Part shown: piece by piece, positions 49,858 through 55,968 of the stretch | Layout of the letters: each line of letters opens with the position of its first letter | Position numbering within the stretch: position 1 is the first letter of the stretch | Assembly (NCBI RefSeq): GCF_002848265.1 | Contig: NZ_CP025422.1 | Span: forward strand, 3,130,727 to 3,194,726 | DNA length: 64,000 nt | Source: Zhihengliuella sp. ISTPL4 | GTDB taxonomy: Bacteria > Actinomycetota > Actinomycetes > Actinomycetales > Microbacteriaceae | Direction: 5' to 3' | Notes under the pieces: generated by a model | Told to the model about the DNA's origin: nothing | The model's input: the letters and a program-made list of their open reading frames with translations, nothing else | Databases searched by the model: none | Position numbers and translations under genes: made by a program

Positions 49858-50007
49858 ATGACCGATCCGCGACAGGACGAGACGACCGGATTCCACGGGG
49901 AGCCCCCGACGGCCAATAACGGAGAGGGGGACACCCCCGAGGTCGACGTGACCGACCTGGAGCCCGAGGAGCTCGAGGACGGCGTGGAGGTCGACGACCG
50001 TCCCTGA
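49858..50007 (+). CDS. Small acidic protein
   Basis: 49 residues, MTDPRQDETTGFHGEPP..., with a Glu/Asp-rich C-terminal half (TDLEPEELEDGVEVDDRP). The strong ribosome site GAGGAGG seven bases upstream supports translation. It ends two bases before the MocR palindrome region. It resembles the 40139 protein in size and composition but not in sequence beyond the start. Confidence 0.7.
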   Translation: MTDPRQDETTGFHGEPPTANNGEGDTPEVDVTDLEPEELEDGVEVDDRP

Positions 50008-50009
50008 CC

Positions 50010-50049
50010 GGTAGGGGAGATTTTGACATAGGTCAAAATCTCCCCTACC
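50010..50049. promoter_or_regulatory. 40-bp perfect palindrome over the MocR gene promoter
   Basis: Two perfect 18-bp arms (50010-50027 and 50032-50049) around ATAG. The core at 50020-50037 reads TTTTGACATAGGTCAAAA, whose reverse complement contains TTTGACCTATGTCAAA, the motif also found at 55083 and 55181. The -35 TTGACA (50023-50028) and -10 TACCGT (50046-50051) are 17 bases apart, and the -10 ends six bases before the MocR ATG (leaderless). Autoregulation is likely. Confidence 0.85.
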
Positions 50050-50057
50050 GTCGAGTC

Positions 50058-51407
50058 ATGGGTAGGGCGGAGAGCAGGGGCGACGAGACGGACGCCATCA
50101 GCGGTGTCACCGCCGCGGAGATCTCGGAGAGCGTCCGCGATCTCGTGGAGCGCGGGACCCTCGTCGCCGGCGACCGGCTCCCTCCGGTCCGCACCCTTGC
50201 GGAGCGCCTCGGCGTCAACCGCAACACCGTGCTCGCCGCCTATCGGTCGCTCGTCAGCGCCCGCATCGCGGCCACCGGTGGACGTACGGGGACGACTGTG
50301 CTCGGCCCCGCCGCGACCCCCGACGAGGGCTTCACCTCCGGGACGGCCCTGCGCGACGTCGGGAGCGGCAACCCGCAGGCGGCGCTCCTGCCCGACCTCG
50401 CGGCGGCGCTCACCTCCGTGCATCCCACCCCCGTGCTCTACGGCGAGTCCGTGATCGATGCCGGGTTGGCCGAGTGGGCGACCAGATGGATCGCGGAGGA
50501 CAACCCGCGTCCGTTCCGGCTGTCGGTCACCGCGGGAGCGGTCGACGCGGTGGAGCGGCTGCTCGCCCAGACTCTGGTGCACGGCGACCGGGTGGGCCTG
50601 GAGGATCCGTGCTTCCTCTCCAGCATCCAGACGGCACGGCTGGCCGGATACTCTCCTGTCGCGATCCCGGTCGACGACGAGGGGATGACGGTGGAGGGTG
50701 TGCGCGACGCCCTGGAGAGCGGCGTCCGTGCGATCGTGTGCACGCCGCGCGCCCACAACCCCACCGGAGTCAGCATCAGCCCGGCTCGCGCCGCAGAGCT
50801 GCGCGAGGTCCTCGCCCCGCACCCGCACGTCCTGGTGATCGAGGACGACCACTTCTCGCTGCTCGCGCCGACGCCGTACGCGAGCATCATCGGGCCGGCG
50901 CAGGAGCGCTGGGCTCTGGTGCGCTCGGTGTCCAAGTTCCTCGGCCCGGACATGCGCCTGGCGCTGACCGCGTCCGACCCGGTCACCGCTGAACGCCTCG
51001 CCCTCCGGCTGAGTCCCGGCACGATGTGGGTGAGCCATGTCATGCAGCAGCTCGCCGCGACCATGCTCCGCGATGCCGGGGTGCACCGGCTGATCGCCGA
51101 GGCCGGGAGCCGGTACGCCGCGCGCAACCGGTCGTTCGCCGCCCTCCTCTCCGCTCGCGGGCTGGGTGTCCGTGCGGAGAGCGGCCTGAACGTCTGGGTG
51201 GACGTCCGAGAAGACGCGGCCGTGGTCGCGGAGCGTCTCGCGCGCCGCGGATGGCTCGTGCGTCCGGGGTCCGAGTTCGCGCTGGAGGAGGGGTCGGCCG
51301 GTTCCCATCATCTGCGGTTGACGGTGCACGACCTCGACGACGCCGACCTGCGACGGCTGGCGGATGACGTGGCGGCCACCGCCGGTCCGGCGGAGGGGGA
51401 CGGATGA
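50058..51407 (+). CDS. MocR-type regulator (GntR wHTH plus aminotransferase domain)
   Basis: 449 residues. GntR winged helix at about 22-85 (LPPVRTLAERLGVNRNTVLAAYRSL), then a fold-type I aminotransferase-like domain. The PLP-binding Lys293 is present in VRSVSKFLGPDMRL, and HNPTGVSIS and IEDDHFSLL are the usual cofactor contacts, so PLP binding is expected. MocR/PdxR proteins sense PLP or amino compounds and control vitamin B6 or amino-acid genes. It overlaps the aminotransferase start (ATGA, 51404-51407). Identical copies of its own operator core occur in front of yggS and a glutamine amidotransferase gene. Confidence 0.92.
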   Translation: MGRAESRGDETDAISGVTAAEISESVRDLVERGTLVAGDRLPPVRTLAERLGVNRNTVLAAYRSLVSARIAATGGRTGTTVLGPAATPDEGFTSGTALRDVGSGNPQAALLPDLAAALTSVHPTPVLYGESVIDAGLAEWATRWIAEDNPRPFRLSVTAGAVDAVERLLAQTLVHGDRVGLEDPCFLSSIQTARLAGYSPVAIPVDDEGMTVEGVRDALESGVRAIVCTPRAHNPTGVSISPARAAELREVLAPHPHVLVIEDDHFSLLAPTPYASIIGPAQERWALVRSVSKFLGPDMRLALTASDPVTAERLALRLSPGTMWVSHVMQQLAATMLRDAGVHRLIAEAGSRYAARNRSFAALLSARGLGVRAESGLNVWVDVREDAAVVAERLARRGWLVRPGSEFALEEGSAGSHHLRLTVHDLDDADLRRLADDVAATAGPAEGDG

Positions 51408-52651
51408 CGGACCGGCATGCCCCGGCCGCTGTCCGCATCGGGCGTTCCTCGCGTCTCGACGGCGTGCTCTACGACCTGCGGGGACCGGTGGCGGAACGTG
51501 CCGCCGAGTTGGAGTCTCGCGGGGAGCGGATCCTCCGCCTCAACATCGGGAACCCCGCGCCGTTCGGCTTCGAGGCGCCGCCCGTGATCGTCGAGGCGCT
51601 GCGAGCTGCCCTTCCGCAGGCTCACGGGTACTCGGAGTCGCCCGGCCTGCCGGAGACGCGGGAGGCGATCCGCGCGCATTACGCACAGCGGCCCGGATTC
51701 CCGGGCATCGGCATCGACGCCGTGACCGTCGGCAACGGCGTCTCCGAGCTGGTGGGGCTCACCCTGCAAGCGCTGCTGGAGCCGGGGGACGAAGTCCTCA
51801 TCCCGAGTCCCGACTATCCGCTGTGGACGGCGTCGACCGTGCTCGCCGGCGGCCAGCCCGTGCACTATCCCTGCGTCGAGGACGCCGGGTGGCTCCCCGA
51901 CCTCGAGGCCATGGCGGCGGCGATCGGACCGCGGACCGTGGCCATCGTCGTCATCAATCCGAACAACCCGACCGGAGCCGTGTACCCCAGGGAGACGCTG
52001 GAGGGCATCGCGGAGCTGGCCCGTCGCCACGGTCTGCTGCTGCTCTCGGACGAGATCTACGACCGTGTCGTGTATCCGGGCTTCGTGCACGTCTCGACGG
52101 CGCAGATCGCCACCGGCGTGCCCTGTGTCACCTTCGCCGGGCTGTCCAAGACCCACCGCGTCGCCGGCTACCGGGCGGCCTGGGCGCTCACGACAGGATT
52201 CGCCGCCGACGATCCCTTCCTCTCCGGCCTGCGGCTGCTCGCCTCGATGCGGATGTGCGCGTCCGTGCCGGCGCAGCATGCGATCACGGCGGCGCTGGGC
52301 CACGATCGATCGCTCGATGCGCTCGTCTCGGCAGAGGGGCGGCTGACCGTGCAGCGAGACGCGGCCACGGCCGCGCTCCGCGCGATTCCCGGTGTGGAGG
52401 TGCAGGAGGCGGGCGGCGGTCTCTACCTCTTCCCCCGCCTCGACCCGGAGGTGTTCGGCATCCTCGACGACGAGCGGCTCGTGCTCGACTTCCTGGACGC
52501 CGAGCGCATCCTCCTCGTCCACGGCCGCGCCTTCAACGGCGCGGATACCGACCATCTGCGTATCGCCTTCCTGCCTGAGACCGGCGTCCTCGTCGACGCG
52601 GTGCAGCGTTTCGGGCGGTTCCTGCAGGGGTACTCCCCGCCGGGACGCTGA
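51404..52651 (+). CDS. AlaA-like class I/II aminotransferase
   Basis: 415 residues. Fold-type I PLP enzyme with Lys249 in FAGLSKTHRVAGYRAAW, INPNNPTGAVYPRETL, DEIYDRVVYPG and SPDYPLWTA. The pattern LNIGNPAPFGFEAPPVI is typical of the AlaA (alanine/glutamate-pyruvate) group. It is coupled to the MocR gene by a four-base overlap, suggesting that MocR controls its level in response to PLP or an amino acid. Confidence 0.9.
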   Translation: MTDRHAPAAVRIGRSSRLDGVLYDLRGPVAERAAELESRGERILRLNIGNPAPFGFEAPPVIVEALRAALPQAHGYSESPGLPETREAIRAHYAQRPGFPGIGIDAVTVGNGVSELVGLTLQALLEPGDEVLIPSPDYPLWTASTVLAGGQPVHYPCVEDAGWLPDLEAMAAAIGPRTVAIVVINPNNPTGAVYPRETLEGIAELARRHGLLLLSDEIYDRVVYPGFVHVSTAQIATGVPCVTFAGLSKTHRVAGYRAAWALTTGFAADDPFLSGLRLLASMRMCASVPAQHAITAALGHDRSLDALVSAEGRLTVQRDAATAALRAIPGVEVQEAGGGLYLFPRLDPEVFGILDDERLVLDFLDAERILLVHGRAFNGADTDHLRIAFLPETGVLVDAVQRFGRFLQGYSPPGR

Positions 52652-52664
52652 GGACCCCAGACCC

Positions 52665-52735
52665 GGTGGAGTGACCGAGTGGCCAGGTCACGGTCCGCAA
52701 GACCGCGCACGCAGGTTCGATTCCTGCCTCCACCT
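52665..52735 (+). tRNA. trnC: tRNA-Cys (anticodon GCA) with C33
   Basis: 71 bases folding into a full cloverleaf: acceptor GGTGGAG/CTCCACC, a 3-bp D stem (ACC/GGT), T stem GCAGG/CCTGC with loop TTCGATT and T73 as discriminator. The anticodon loop is CCGCAAG, so the anticodon is GCA and position 33 is C instead of the near-universal U. A27-C43 is also unpaired at the top of the anticodon stem. It lies 13 bases after the aminotransferase stop. Confidence 0.9.
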
Positions 52736-52765
52736 CTGATCGCCGACCTTCGGGCCGCGCCGAGT

Positions 52766-53617
52766 TCAGGCCGCGAGGCCGAGCCAGGCCCGCGGGGAGC
52801 GGCCCAGTCGCTGGGTGAATGCGCGGGAGAAGGCGGAGGCGCTCGCATAGCCGAGATCGGCGGCGACAGCGCTCACCGACATCCCTGCCCGCAGTTGCTC
52901 TTGGGCGATCGTGAGCCGCCACTCCGTCAGGTAGTCGCCCGGCGCGCGGCCGACGACCTCCTTGAATCGCGCTGCGAACGCGCTGCGCGACATGGTCGCC
53001 GTGCGCGCGAGCGCGTCGAGGCTCCAAGGTTCTCCGGGGGCCTCGTGCATCGCCACGAGGGCGGGTGCGAGTCGCTCGTCGGCCAGTCCGGGCAGCAGCC
53101 CCGGCGGCAGCGCCAGCTCGCCCGAGTGGTCGAGCATCCAGCGCAGGAGCTGGATGAGCACGACCTCGAACATCCGATCGGCGACCAGAGGACGGCCGCA
53201 GCGCACGTTGTCGACCTCGGCGAAGAGGAGGTCCAGCGCGGGAGCGAGGGTCGACACCTCGTCAAGGGGCAGGACGATCACGGAGGGGAGGGTGCGGACG
53301 AGCGGATGCGTCGTCCCGCCGTCGAAGTCGATCGTGGCGCAGGCGAAGTCCGACTCCTCGGTCGGCGCGTTGAGGAAGGTGTGATCGATCGGGCGGGGGA
53401 AGAACAGCAGGCTCGGCCGCGTGATGGTCTCCCGCTCGATGCGCCCGTCCGGGCGCTGATGCGTGACCTCCATCTCGCCGCGACGCAGCACGTGGAGGAA
53501 GCCGTGGCCTGCGCTCGCCGCGAAGACCGTCGTGCCGCAGAGGGGGCCGGTGTGAAACAGGCGGCTGCGCACCCGGAAGCGATCGAGCAGGGGGGTGAGA
53601 CGGTCGAGTGGCGGCAT
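52766..53617 (-). CDS. AraC-family transcriptional regulator with cupin domain
   Basis: 283 residues. A cupin-type N-terminal domain (about 15-150; GHGFLHVLRRGEMEVTH, PSLLFFPRPIDHTF) precedes two helix-turn-helix motifs (about 195-280; WSLDALARTATMSRSAFAARFKEVVGRAPGDYLTEWRL and VSAVAADLGYASASAFSRAFTQRLGRSPRAW). It is divergent from the AhpD-like gene at 53740, the family's frequent partner. The start ATG at 53617 follows GGAAGG. Confidence 0.9.
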   Translation of the reverse strand: MPPLDRLTPLLDRFRVRSRLFHTGPLCGTTVFAASAGHGFLHVLRRGEMEVTHQRPDGRIERETITRPSLLFFPRPIDHTFLNAPTEESDFACATIDFDGGTTHPLVRTLPSVIVLPLDEVSTLAPALDLLFAEVDNVRCGRPLVADRMFEVVLIQLLRWMLDHSGELALPPGLLPGLADERLAPALVAMHEAPGEPWSLDALARTATMSRSAFAARFKEVVGRAPGDYLTEWRLTIAQEQLRAGMSVSAVAADLGYASASAFSRAFTQRLGRSPRAWLGLAA

Positions 53618-53739
53618 CCTTCCATTCTTCTGGACGATGTGTCATGAATACAAGACCGGATGATGCGTATCATCCTGCGCTCCACGGAAGACTGAAGGGG
53701 AAGCCGAACCCGGCCCGTCCCGAAACAAAGGAGCATCCC

Positions 53740-54285
53740 ATGCCCAACGTCCCTCTCGTCGACCGTGAGACCGCCACCGGCCCCGTCAAGGACCAGCTCG
53801 AGCAGATCGGCTCCGCGTTCGGTGCCGTTCCCGCCATGTTCCGCGCGGTCGCGAACTCGCCCGCTGCTCTGACCAGCATGTGGAGCGCGTTCGGCGCCTA
53901 CGGCGGGGGCACGCTCGGCGCGGCTCTCGGGGAGCAGATCGCCGTCGCCGTCGCGAACCGCAACTCGTGCGGCTACTGCCTCGCCGCGCACACCGCGCTC
54001 GGCAAGAAGGCCGGCCTGTCGAAAGAGGTCCTCGCCGAGGCGCAGGAAGGCACCTCCGATGACCCCCGCACCGCGGCGCTGCTGGCCTTCGCGCTCAAGC
54101 TCGTCGAGGAGCGGGGCCAGGTGGCCTCGGCCGACGTCGACGCCCTTCGCGCGCACGGCTGGAACGACGAGCAGATCGTCGAGACCATCGGCCAGGTCGC
54201 GCTGAACCTCTTCACGAACTACGTGAACATCGCGCTCGACGTGCCGATCGACTTCCCGACGGTGCCGCTGCGTCGCGCCGCCTGA
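53740..54285 (+). CDS. AhpD-like carboxymuconolactone decarboxylase-family protein
   Basis: 181 residues, all helical. The redox centre NSCGYCLAAHT (CxxC plus His, about residues 75-84) is intact, so a peroxidase-related AhpD-type thiol activity is likely rather than decarboxylation. Ribosome site AAAGGAGCATCCC before ATG 53740. It is divergent from the AraC regulator, which probably induces it on oxidative or electrophilic stress. Confidence 0.9.
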   Translation: MPNVPLVDRETATGPVKDQLEQIGSAFGAVPAMFRAVANSPAALTSMWSAFGAYGGGTLGAALGEQIAVAVANRNSCGYCLAAHTALGKKAGLSKEVLAEAQEGTSDDPRTAALLAFALKLVEERGQVASADVDALRAHGWNDEQIVETIGQVALNLFTNYVNIALDVPIDFPTVPLRRAA

Positions 54286-54298
54286 GGTCGAGGGGAGT

Positions 54299-54329
54299 AG
54301 AGGCCGGATCCGCTGGGGGTCCGGCCTCT
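54299..54329. terminator. Bidirectional terminator hairpin
   Basis: A 10-bp perfect stem (54299-54308 with 54320-54329) and 11-base loop, followed by TT, between the AhpD-like gene and the converging amidotransferase gene. Confidence 0.8.
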
Positions 54330-54350
54330 TCCGCTGCGCGGGTGGTCTCG

Positions 54351-55064
54351 CTAGGCCTCGATCGCATCCAGCCAGTCGGTGAGGACGCGGGTGGCGAGGG
54401 TCTCGAGCCGGGGGCCCAGCGCGCGCGCCTCTTCTCGGATCATCCGCGGGTCGATGCCGTGGTGATGCAGCTCGTGGGCGTGGCCGATGAGCCAGCGCTC
54501 GATGGCGCGGTGATCGGCTTCCAGGTGGAACTGAAGACCGAGTGTGCGTCCGACCGCGAAGGCCTGATGGGGATAGCCGGGCGTGCATGCCAGGGACTGG
54601 GCGCCGGCCGGGATCGCGAACTCGTCGCCGTGCCAGTGCAGCACAGGCTCGCCGTCGAGCGGGGCCAAGACGGACTCCCTGCCCTCGGGGGTCAGTGTGA
54701 GCGGACCGAAGCCGATCTCGACCGCCCCGGTCGGACGGACCCCCGCGCCCAGGGACTCAGCCAGGAGCTGGGCTCCGAGGCAGACGCCGAGCGTGGCGCC
54801 GCCGCTGTCGAGGCGAGCCGCGAGGGCGGACTTCGAGGAGCGCAGGAAGGGATAGCGGTCGTCGTCGTACATGCCGATCGGTCCGCCGAGGACGATGAGC
54901 AGGTCGACGGCGGTGACGACGTTCTCGTCGATATCGTCGATGCCGGCGTCGAGGAGGGTGATCTCGTAACCGCGCTCCGCCAGCAGAGGGGCGAGGATCC
55001 CGAGGTCTTCGAAGGGGACGTGGCGGACGGCGACCGCCGTTCGGAGCGGACGGGGCGCGGACAT
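54351..55064 (-). CDS. Class I glutamine amidotransferase
   Basis: 237 residues. Nucleophile Cys95 in LGVCLGAQLLAE, His180 and Glu182 in LQFHLEAD, and LIVLGGPIGMYDDDRYPFL as the oxyanion region. It is a stand-alone amidotransferase of the GMP-synthase-like group; the ammonia-accepting partner is not visible. Ribosome site GAGGAG precedes ATG 55064. The identical MocR-core palindrome lies 19 bases upstream (55083-55098), so it is a probable target of that regulator. Confidence 0.88.
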   Translation of the reverse strand: MSAPRPLRTAVAVRHVPFEDLGILAPLLAERGYEITLLDAGIDDIDENVVTAVDLLIVLGGPIGMYDDDRYPFLRSSKSALAARLDSGGATLGVCLGAQLLAESLGAGVRPTGAVEIGFGPLTLTPEGRESVLAPLDGEPVLHWHGDEFAIPAGAQSLACTPGYPHQAFAVGRTLGLQFHLEADHRAIERWLIGHAHELHHHGIDPRMIREEARALGPRLETLATRVLTDWLDAIEA

Positions 55065-55082
55065 GCACTCTCCTCGGATAGA

Positions 55083-55098
55083 TTTGACCTATGTCAAA
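55083..55098. promoter_or_regulatory. MocR-type palindrome upstream of the amidotransferase gene
   Basis: TTTGACCTATGTCAAA, the same 16-mer as at 55181 and (in reverse) within the 50010-50049 palindrome. It lies directly upstream of the ribosome site of the minus-strand amidotransferase gene. Confidence 0.8.
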
Positions 55099-55180
55099 GT
55101 AGCACAGGAGCTTCGGGGTGCCGAGGCGATCGCGCGCGCCGCGGGTCCCTGTTCCTCCGGCGGAGCGCACTCTGCTAGGT

Positions 55181-55196
55181 TTTGACCTATGTCAAA
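55181..55196. promoter_or_regulatory. MocR-type palindrome overlapping the yggS start codon
   Basis: TTTGACCTATGTCAAA again; its centre contains the ATG of yggS at 55189. The -10 TAGGTT (55176-55181) ends seven bases before the ATG, so the transcript is probably leaderless and the site would overlap the transcription start. Confidence 0.8.
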
Positions 55197-55968
55197 GCCC
55201 GAGCCCTTCGCAGGCGGTGCCGAGCGCTATCCGACGGCCTTCACCGGCGCGGACTTCCGCGCCAACGCCGCCGCCGTCCGCGCCCGCATCGCCGCCGCCG
55301 CCGGGCGTGCGGGCCGTGATCCCGGTGCGGTGGACCTGCTGCCGGTGAGCAAGACCGTCCCGACCGATCGCGTGCGGGTGGCCATCGGTGCCGGCTTGCG
55401 CCGCCTCGGCGAGAACAAGGTGCAGGAGGCCGTGCGCAAGAACCGGGAGACGGCCGACCTCGACGTGGACTGGGTGGTCATCGGCCACCTGCAGACGAAC
55501 AAGGCCAGGGACGTCGCGTCTTTCGCCGCCGAGTTCCAGGCGCTCGACCGGCTCCGGGTCGCCGAGGCCTTGGACCGGCGTCTCCAGGCCGCGGGGCGCA
55601 CCCTCGATGTGTACGTGCAGGTGAACACGTCAGCCGAAGACTCGAAGTTCGGGATGCCGCCCGAGGAGCTGCCGGGCTTCCTGAAGGCCCTGCCGTCCTA
55701 CGGTGCCCTCCGTGTCCGCGGGCTGATGACGCTCGCGCTGCTCACGCCGGACGACGCCAGGGTGCGGGAGTGCTTCGCGCTGCTGCGCACCCTCCGTGAC
55801 CGGGCCCGCGAGGAGGATCCCGACCTCATCGGCGACGGTGCCTTGTCGATGGGCATGTCCGGCGACTACGAGATCGCCGTCGAGGAGGGGGCGACGTGCG
55901 TGCGGGTCGGCCAGGCGATCTTCGGCGCGCGATCCGTCCCCGACAGTCACTACTGGCCGGAGGGCTGA
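55189..55968 (+). CDS. yggS: PLP homeostasis protein YggS
   Basis: 259 residues, fold-type III TIM barrel that binds PLP through Lys55 in LLPVSKTVP. GENKVQEA, WVVIGHLQTNKARDVA, VYVQVNTSAEDSKFG and MGMSGDYEIAVEEGATCVRVGQAIFG are all conserved. YggS proteins buffer free PLP and affect amino-acid pools; they have no known catalytic activity. A MocR-type palindrome overlaps the start, which ties this PLP protein to the PLP-sensing regulator at 50058. Confidence 0.93.
   Translation: MSKPEPFAGGAERYPTAFTGADFRANAAAVRARIAAAAGRAGRDPGAVDLLPVSKTVPTDRVRVAIGAGLRRLGENKVQEAVRKNRETADLDVDWVVIGHLQTNKARDVASFAAEFQALDRLRVAEALDRRLQAAGRTLDVYVQVNTSAEDSKFGMPPEELPGFLKALPSYGALRVRGLMTLALLTPDDARVRECFALLRTLRDRAREEDPDLIGDGALSMGMSGDYEIAVEEGATCVRVGQAIFGARSVPDSHYWPEG

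Follow-up and report, generated by a model that had tools for sequence, protein, structure and literature searches.

A palindromic site at a MocR-type regulator gene and a second yggS gene in Zhihengliuella sp. ISTPL4: the candidate operator of a PLP-related regulon

We analysed a 64,000-nt stretch of the genome of Zhihengliuella sp. ISTPL4 (contig NZ_CP025422.1, positions 3,130,727 to 3,194,726; hereafter the window), in which copies of a 16-bp palindromic site, TTTGACCTATGTCAAA, accompany a cluster of genes related to pyridoxal 5'-phosphate (PLP). The cluster (Table 1) contains the gene of a MocR-type regulator, here called MocR-A, an AlaA-like aminotransferase gene, a class I glutamine amidotransferase (GAT) gene on the opposite strand, and yggS2. 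The latter is a second gene of the YggS family, which we take to be COG325, and its product shares 38% identity with the genome's other YggS.

MocR-A has the domain architecture of the MocR family, with PF00392 at residues 19-81 and PF00155 at residues 155-436. The best NCBIfam model is that of PtsJ (NF012025), with 507.7 bits, which is under its cut-off of 573. The PdxR model gives 152.3 bits against a cut-off of 320; the pdxST-linked paralogue from the same genome also fails it (157 bits), and thus this model cannot tell MocR-A from PdxR. An aminotransferase gene is found 3' of mocR-A in 11 of 13 MocR-A loci of the genus. A tRNA-Cys gene (52665-52736) lies between the mocR operon and the gene of an AraC-type regulator (52766-53617). 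The latter and an AhpD-like gene, together at 52766-54285, are observed in all 12 MocR-A loci of related Microbacterium and also near those of L125, L307 and L308.

Table 1. Features of the mocR-A and yggS2 region, in window coordinates.
Feature	Position	Strand	Remarks
Inverted repeat around operator 1	50010..50049	.	perfect 18-bp arms, 4-bp centre, 38/40 self-complementary
Operator 1 (TTTGACATAGGTCAAA in mocR sense)	50022..50037	+	covers mocR -35; at most 1 mismatch at 13/13 MocR-A genes
-35 hexamer TTGACA inside operator 1	50023..50028	+	17 bp 5' of -10; in all 13 MocR-A rows
-10-like TACCGT of mocR	50046..50051	+	6 nt 5' of mocR ATG; TANNGT in all 13 rows
MocR-A, MocR-type regulator (GntR winged helix-turn-helix and aminotransferase domain)	50058..51407	+	Pfam PF00392, PF00155; PLP Lys293; tree
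AlaA-like class I aminotransferase	51404..52651	+	PF00155; NF006230 alanine aminotransferase best model, under cut-off; ATGA overlap with mocR
Class I glutamine amidotransferase (GAT)	54351..55064	-	NF005458 296.4 bits, above cut-off 250
Operator 2, GAT side	55083..55098	.	near relatives: between GAT and HAD phosphatase gene
5' remnant of lost HAD phosphatase gene	55091..55154	+	starts within operator 2; codon 4 is a stop (MSK*)
-10 TAGGTT of yggS2, TG-extended	55176..55181	+	sequence
Operator 3	55181..55196	+	contains yggS2 start codon (ATG at 55189)
yggS2, second PLP-homeostasis-protein gene	55189..55968	+	TIGR00044 171.1 bits, cut-off 106.25: passes YggS/PLPHP test

An earlier note on this DNA, made from the sequence alone, had reported three exact copies of the 16-mer, and these are the only ones in the one-contig genome (3,529,629 bases). 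All fall within one 5-kb stretch, operator 1 in reverse and operators 2 and 3 on the forward strand. The same note held chance occurrence to be very unlikely. Indeed, with up to three mismatches allowed there are six strand-hits at three places in the window, against a mean of 0.01 in 100 window shuffles. The relaxed pattern TTTGACNNNNGTCAAA finds the same three places and no others in the whole genome, and its reversed control finds none; a search with up to three mismatches adds two places, of which one, TTTGATCTAGATCAAA, lies between pdxR and pdxS and the other is unsymmetric. The 16-mer is self-complementary at 14 of 16 positions. The inverted repeat around operator 1, described previously as a perfect 40-bp palindrome, in fact consists of two perfect 18-bp arms flanking a 4-bp centre and is self-complementary at 38/40 positions. 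The full 18-bp arms occur in only two of the 13 MocR-A loci, the window and G149, the remaining 11 scoring 18-30 of 40, and thus the 40-bp palindrome was rejected as the working unit; the 16-bp core is present at 13/13 loci with at most one mismatch. A small open reading frame (ORF) at 49858-50007, encoding 49 residues of acidic character, has its stop codon 2 bp ahead of the inverted repeat.

The placement of the copies relative to the promoters is regular. Operator 1 contains the -35 hexamer of mocR, in agreement with the earlier claim that one copy covers this promoter, and the spacing of the -10-like box from the ATG implies that mocR is probably leaderless. The claim that another copy holds the yggS start codon is correct as to the site, while the gene is the second yggS copy. 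We considered 29 operator copies that hold the ATG of yggS2, HAD, kinase-like or amidotransferase genes. In 28 of them a TAnnnT box ends 6-7 nt 5' of the ATG, and in 23 of the 29 the -10 box has the TG-extended form; the upstream DNA of the same loci has such a box at 4 of 1885 positions. These copies were picked as known openers of such genes and, their rows being related, do not represent 29 separate events. A start codon that lies inside the operator and shortly 3' of a -10 box suggests repression of leaderless genes. In the window the next possible start of yggS2 is codon 48. Several relatives have one at codon 4 to 15, and for this reason we call the yggS2 mRNA apparently, rather than demonstrably, leaderless. 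The right half-site would encode the first residues of the product: Met, then Ser, Pro or Thr, then Lys, Asn or Ile. In a Leucobacter genome a gene of the phage integrase family (L327:1197-2180, minus strand) starts inside an operator copy and its first residues are YggS2-like, which looks like the capture of such a start by a mobile gene.

Operators 2 and 3 are 82 bp apart because two genes have been lost between them. Near relatives have a HAD phosphatase gene and gabT in the interval from GAT to yggS2; both are missing from the window, where a short 5' remnant of the HAD gene precedes the yggS2 promoter. Window positions 54991-55154 match the GAT/HAD 5' region of three relatives (L050, L051, L103) at 86-90% identity. 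A second loss of HAD and gabT from the cluster is seen in G197 (L061:14496-15295), where the start codon in the HAD-type operator opens the yggS2 frame.

Among 295 genomes of the genus, MocR-A (at least 75% identity; next best matches at most 63%) and YggS2 (at least 80% identity) are present in the same 13. The operator precedes mocR-A in all 13 of these genomes (at most one mismatch) and covers the yggS2 start codon at 12 of 12 judgeable loci, the 13th (G023) being interrupted by contig ends. One of these 12 sites, that of G197, is a two-mismatch copy which in relatives belongs to HAD. The yggS2 gene of G279 (L052:641-1403) is split over two frames, possibly by a sequencing error. The exact sequence TTTGACNTANGTCAAA was found in 13 of the 295 genomes: ten with MocR-A, and G029, G038 and G087. 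The last two have no MocR-A, and their TTTGACCTAGGTCAAA is located at PdxR. At yggS2-like genes with no MocR-A nearby the site was found at none of seven loci in the genus and none of 29 in the class; the class control is weak, as only four of its rows are 67-72% identical and the others 41-54%, and 1.5 kb of flank was read. No close MocR turned up in those four genomes, the best matches having E 6e-20 or weaker. Thus for mocR-A and yggS2 the site is conserved among orthologous promoters and is not seen without the regulator, the exceptions being G029 and GAT.

In other genera the site is kept beside mocR-A, at yggS2, at the amidotransferase gene or at a gene resembling those of pyridoxal/pyridoxine/pyridoxamine (PL/PN/PM) kinases. 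In Nonomuraea pusilla gabT comes after mocR-A, and the operator separates mocR-A from a row of yggS2, kinase-like, amidotransferase and Nudix genes. In a genome from another genus of the family (g187), one site is located between mocR-A and yggS2 and a second between the kinase-like and DegT-type aminotransferase genes. The site is also carried by genes away from mocR-A: two Leucobacter genomes (L313, L326) have yggS2 on a different contig from mocR-A, with the site still there, and in L307 and L308 a kinase-like gene about 6 kb away from mocR-A carries it. In the M. oxydans group the operator is carried, in three genomes (L316-L318, base 1501 onward), by an unlinked gene resembling that of glyceraldehyde-3-phosphate dehydrogenase (GAPDH); in L317 and L318 a thioredoxin-like ORF comes next. 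A GAPDH-like gene also adjoins GAT in L054 and L108. The best model of the kinase-like proteins is NF006034, with 233.5 and 183.6 bits, under the cut-off of 342. When 22 MocR-A genomes (ten from elsewhere and all but one of the 13 in the genus) were scanned in full, each gave 0-5 sites. Two Leucobacter copies have other neighbours: L127:6228-6243 lies between an ORF with no Pfam match and a FUR-family gene, and in L134 a site is found similarly far from mocR; L325:2215-2230 overlaps the 3' end of a transporter-like ORF.

The same genome encodes a second MocR protein, MocR-B (genome positions 756501-757808). Its gene is divergent from pdxST, unlike that of MocR-A, and the next gene encodes a pyridoxal kinase whose sequence passes PdxY; MocR-B is in effect a canonical PdxR. 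In a tree of 47 MocR proteins (the window, its own PdxR, three further relatives and 42 of 80 named loci), 22 rows labelled by us as MocR-A part from 25 pdxST-linked rows with support 100/100. The MocR-A rows span Microbacterium, Leucobacter, Nonomuraea, Nocardioides and Actinomadura, and MocR-A appears from these sequences to be a long-standing paralogue of PdxR. In four of the 22 (L105, L112, L127, L134) gabT or GAT was seen and no yggS2 within the stretch examined. The PLP lysine, which the earlier note had rightly described as intact, is Lys293, conserved together with Asn234, Asp263 and Arg420 in all 47 rows. Residue 300 is Arg in all 22 MocR-A rows and Cys (21 rows), Ser, Gly or Ala in the 25 PdxR rows. 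Arg300, which presumably binds the PLP phosphate, aligns with an Arg found in structurally characterised aminotransferases. Two loci in this material, L131 (under the name Stenotrophomonas maltophilia P13; the tree places it as well) and L150 (Planococcus sp. APC 4015), have a Microbacterium-like pdxR-pdxST arrangement and are likely contamination or mislabelling.

The operator of PdxR is a variant, related palindrome, found by a strict test in 29 of 33 genomes without MocR-A and in one of 660 mononucleotide shuffles. It has the form TTTGATCTAGATCAAA in ten of the 11 MocR-A genomes examined (of 13), and of the 36 examined genomes without MocR-A (the 33, G029, G038 and G087) only in G029. It looks as if the operators of the two paralogues had parted, possibly in one event, because the MocR-A genomes form one clade. 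A protein-only search for MocR in 199 genomes of the family gave the same association: among the 30 best loci the palindrome was present at 14/14 linked to pdxS, 5/5 linked to yggS2, gabT or GAT (the window included), 1/2 of unknown context and 0/9 distant ones. In 394 genomes of the class, 24 further MocR loci searched for a loose palindrome gave 10/11 linked to pdxS, 1/1 other (50% identity) and 1/12 more distant, and thus the distant rows of the class are not wholly clean of it.

Related systems have been described. In the portion of Suvorova and Rodionov (2016, PMC5320631) considered here, PdxR regulons are predicted to include COG325, a GuaA-family amidotransferase, aminotransferases and pdxK, and 20% of regulons have inverted-repeat operators. 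The earlier note knew of no description of such a regulon; with YggS and the GuaA-type amidotransferase already predicted in PdxR regulons there, the system considered here is a variant of that one. It differs in that the MocR-A rows are separate in the tree and do not adjoin pdxST, and in that it has its own form of operator, with start codons inside. The paralogue split, the present operator and its overlap with start codons were not found in the literature searched, although the tables of PMC5320631, outside this search, may list the system. In Salmonella, PtsJ represses pdxK, and its loss raises pdxK transcription about 80-fold, according to the part of PMC13353753 covered here, which also links YggS to PLP delivery. 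MocR-A resembles PtsJ in its best model and in the link to B6 salvage; however, it scores below the cut-off, its window target is yggS2 rather than a kinase gene, and the paralogue PdxR scores alike (506.9). YggS2 in turn differs from known YggS/PLPHP genes in being a MocR-linked copy beside another yggS.

Taken together, the 16-bp site is most likely the operator of MocR-A, acting as a PLP-responsive repressor of a PLP-handling regulon. This extends the proposal of the earlier note, that MocR controls such a regulon, which is supported by the conservation of the site and its co-occurrence with MocR-A; the kinase-like members, present in Nonomuraea and one other genus of the family, favour PLP homeostasis. 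MocR-A would occupy the -35 box at the mocR promoter; at yggS2, where the site appears to lie over the transcription start and the start codon, initiation would be prevented by a bound dimer. We infer repression because the operators sit over exactly these elements. The signal, judging from the family, would be PLP or a PLP-amino-acid aldimine. The regulon would supply and handle PLP around aminotransferases: in the window it would include yggS2 (a putative PLP carrier), the amidotransferase and the AlaA-like aminotransferase of the mocR operon, to which relatives would add GABA (gamma-aminobutyric acid) transaminase, the HAD phosphatase, the kinase-like protein and the GAPDH-like enzyme.

Several observations weigh against this reading. 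The site is less constant at GAT than at mocR-A and yggS2. The previously noted copy ahead of the amidotransferase gene is there; in near relatives, however, it is shared with the HAD gene, and a site lies within 55 nt of GAT in five of the 13 loci. Five further loci have their nearest site at a distance of 1.06-1.08 kb, and a GAPDH-like gene occupies the interval where inspected (L054); at the remaining three no site is nearer than that of yggS2. This weaker showing slightly lowers our confidence. G029 has an exact site near GAT and no MocR-A, and the genomes with no site under the tight pattern are those of Nocardioides and Actinomadura, whose sites deviate. Other PdxR proteins activate pdxST, according to the portion of PMC5320631 considered, which bears on the proposed direction of control. 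Finally, MocR-A and PdxR differ little in their recognition helices, and thus PdxR could bind the sites too.

One alternative is that MocR-A is a regulator of GABA or amino acid catabolism like GabR of Bacillus subtilis, with PLP homeostasis secondary. It shares the MocR architecture with GabR, and gabT lies behind mocR-A in Nonomuraea, Leucobacter and two other genera of the family, with three gabT products passing TIGR00700 (520.2, 526.2 and 523.9 against 506.65); the conserved Arg420 is, by family analogy, a carboxylate-binding position. However, yggS2 and the kinase-like genes carry the site while gabT is gone from the window cluster, and MocR-A scores only 31.3 bits with the NCBIfam GabR model and 26.9 bits against the GabR chain in PDB. 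GabR binds direct repeats (PMC5320631, same portion), unlike the palindromic operator here. In the motif alignment the GABA-binding Arg207 (PMC6677901, Table 5; the part of that paper covered also gives the MocR subgroups) is replaced in all 22 MocR-A rows (S 16, T 4, A 2). GabR-type GABA sensing was rejected as the leading explanation on this position, and the alternative as a whole is doubtful, although it keeps some credit.

Binding of the sites by PdxR instead of MocR-A, or by both within one merged B6 regulon, seems unlikely. The similar recognition helices and related palindromes would allow it, as would G029 and the genome G077, whose PdxR site is one base off the MocR-A type. On the other hand, the TTTGATCTAGATCAAA form marks PdxR in MocR-A genomes, with the reservation that these are one clade, and of seven genomes in the genus that have a yggS2-like gene and lack MocR-A, six have a PdxR-class protein, and the yggS2-like gene is without the site in all seven. 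The AraC-type regulator, encoded between the sites and so constant at Microbacterium loci, is a very improbable binder: it was rejected because its gene was not found (tblastn, 1e-8) at the Nonomuraea, Nocardioides and Actinomadura loci or in L309 and L310, where the palindrome stays, and a related palindrome is seen at PdxR loci. That the sites are a dispersed repeat, a terminator or a plain promoter element with no dedicated regulator is the least credible of all: TTGACA within the site matches a -35 consensus, a small ORF ends ahead of one site and the L325 copy overlaps an ORF end, but the low copy numbers, with nearly all copies at gene starts and, in this genome, none at random positions, the conservation of both arms across genera and the absence of a T-run 3' of the window sites led us to reject it.

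A stronger form of the MocR-A reading, to which we give about even weight, treats the operator as a portable start module, (TGn)TAnnnT followed by TTTGACCT-ATG-TCAAA, of a second actinobacterial B6 regulator. Such a module would have come to open the genes of four or more unrelated families (yggS2, HAD phosphatase, pyridoxal-kinase-like and amidotransferase genes); MocR-A binding would close off the transcription start of leaderless genes together with their start codon, the module would dictate the N-termini of the products, and a PLP carrier for aminotransferases would be switched together with its kinase.

How PLP is delivered to apo-enzymes is an open matter, and YggS is a leading candidate for the carrier (PMC13353753, in the part covered). 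A second yggS, tied by one operator to a PLP-type regulator, to aminotransferases and in relatives to a pyridoxal-kinase-like gene, would thus provide a defined set of genes for PLP delivery. The overlap of operator and start codon would be a compact layout for repressing leaderless genes, and the paralogue pair with its differing operators may serve as a ready case of how duplicated regulators part.

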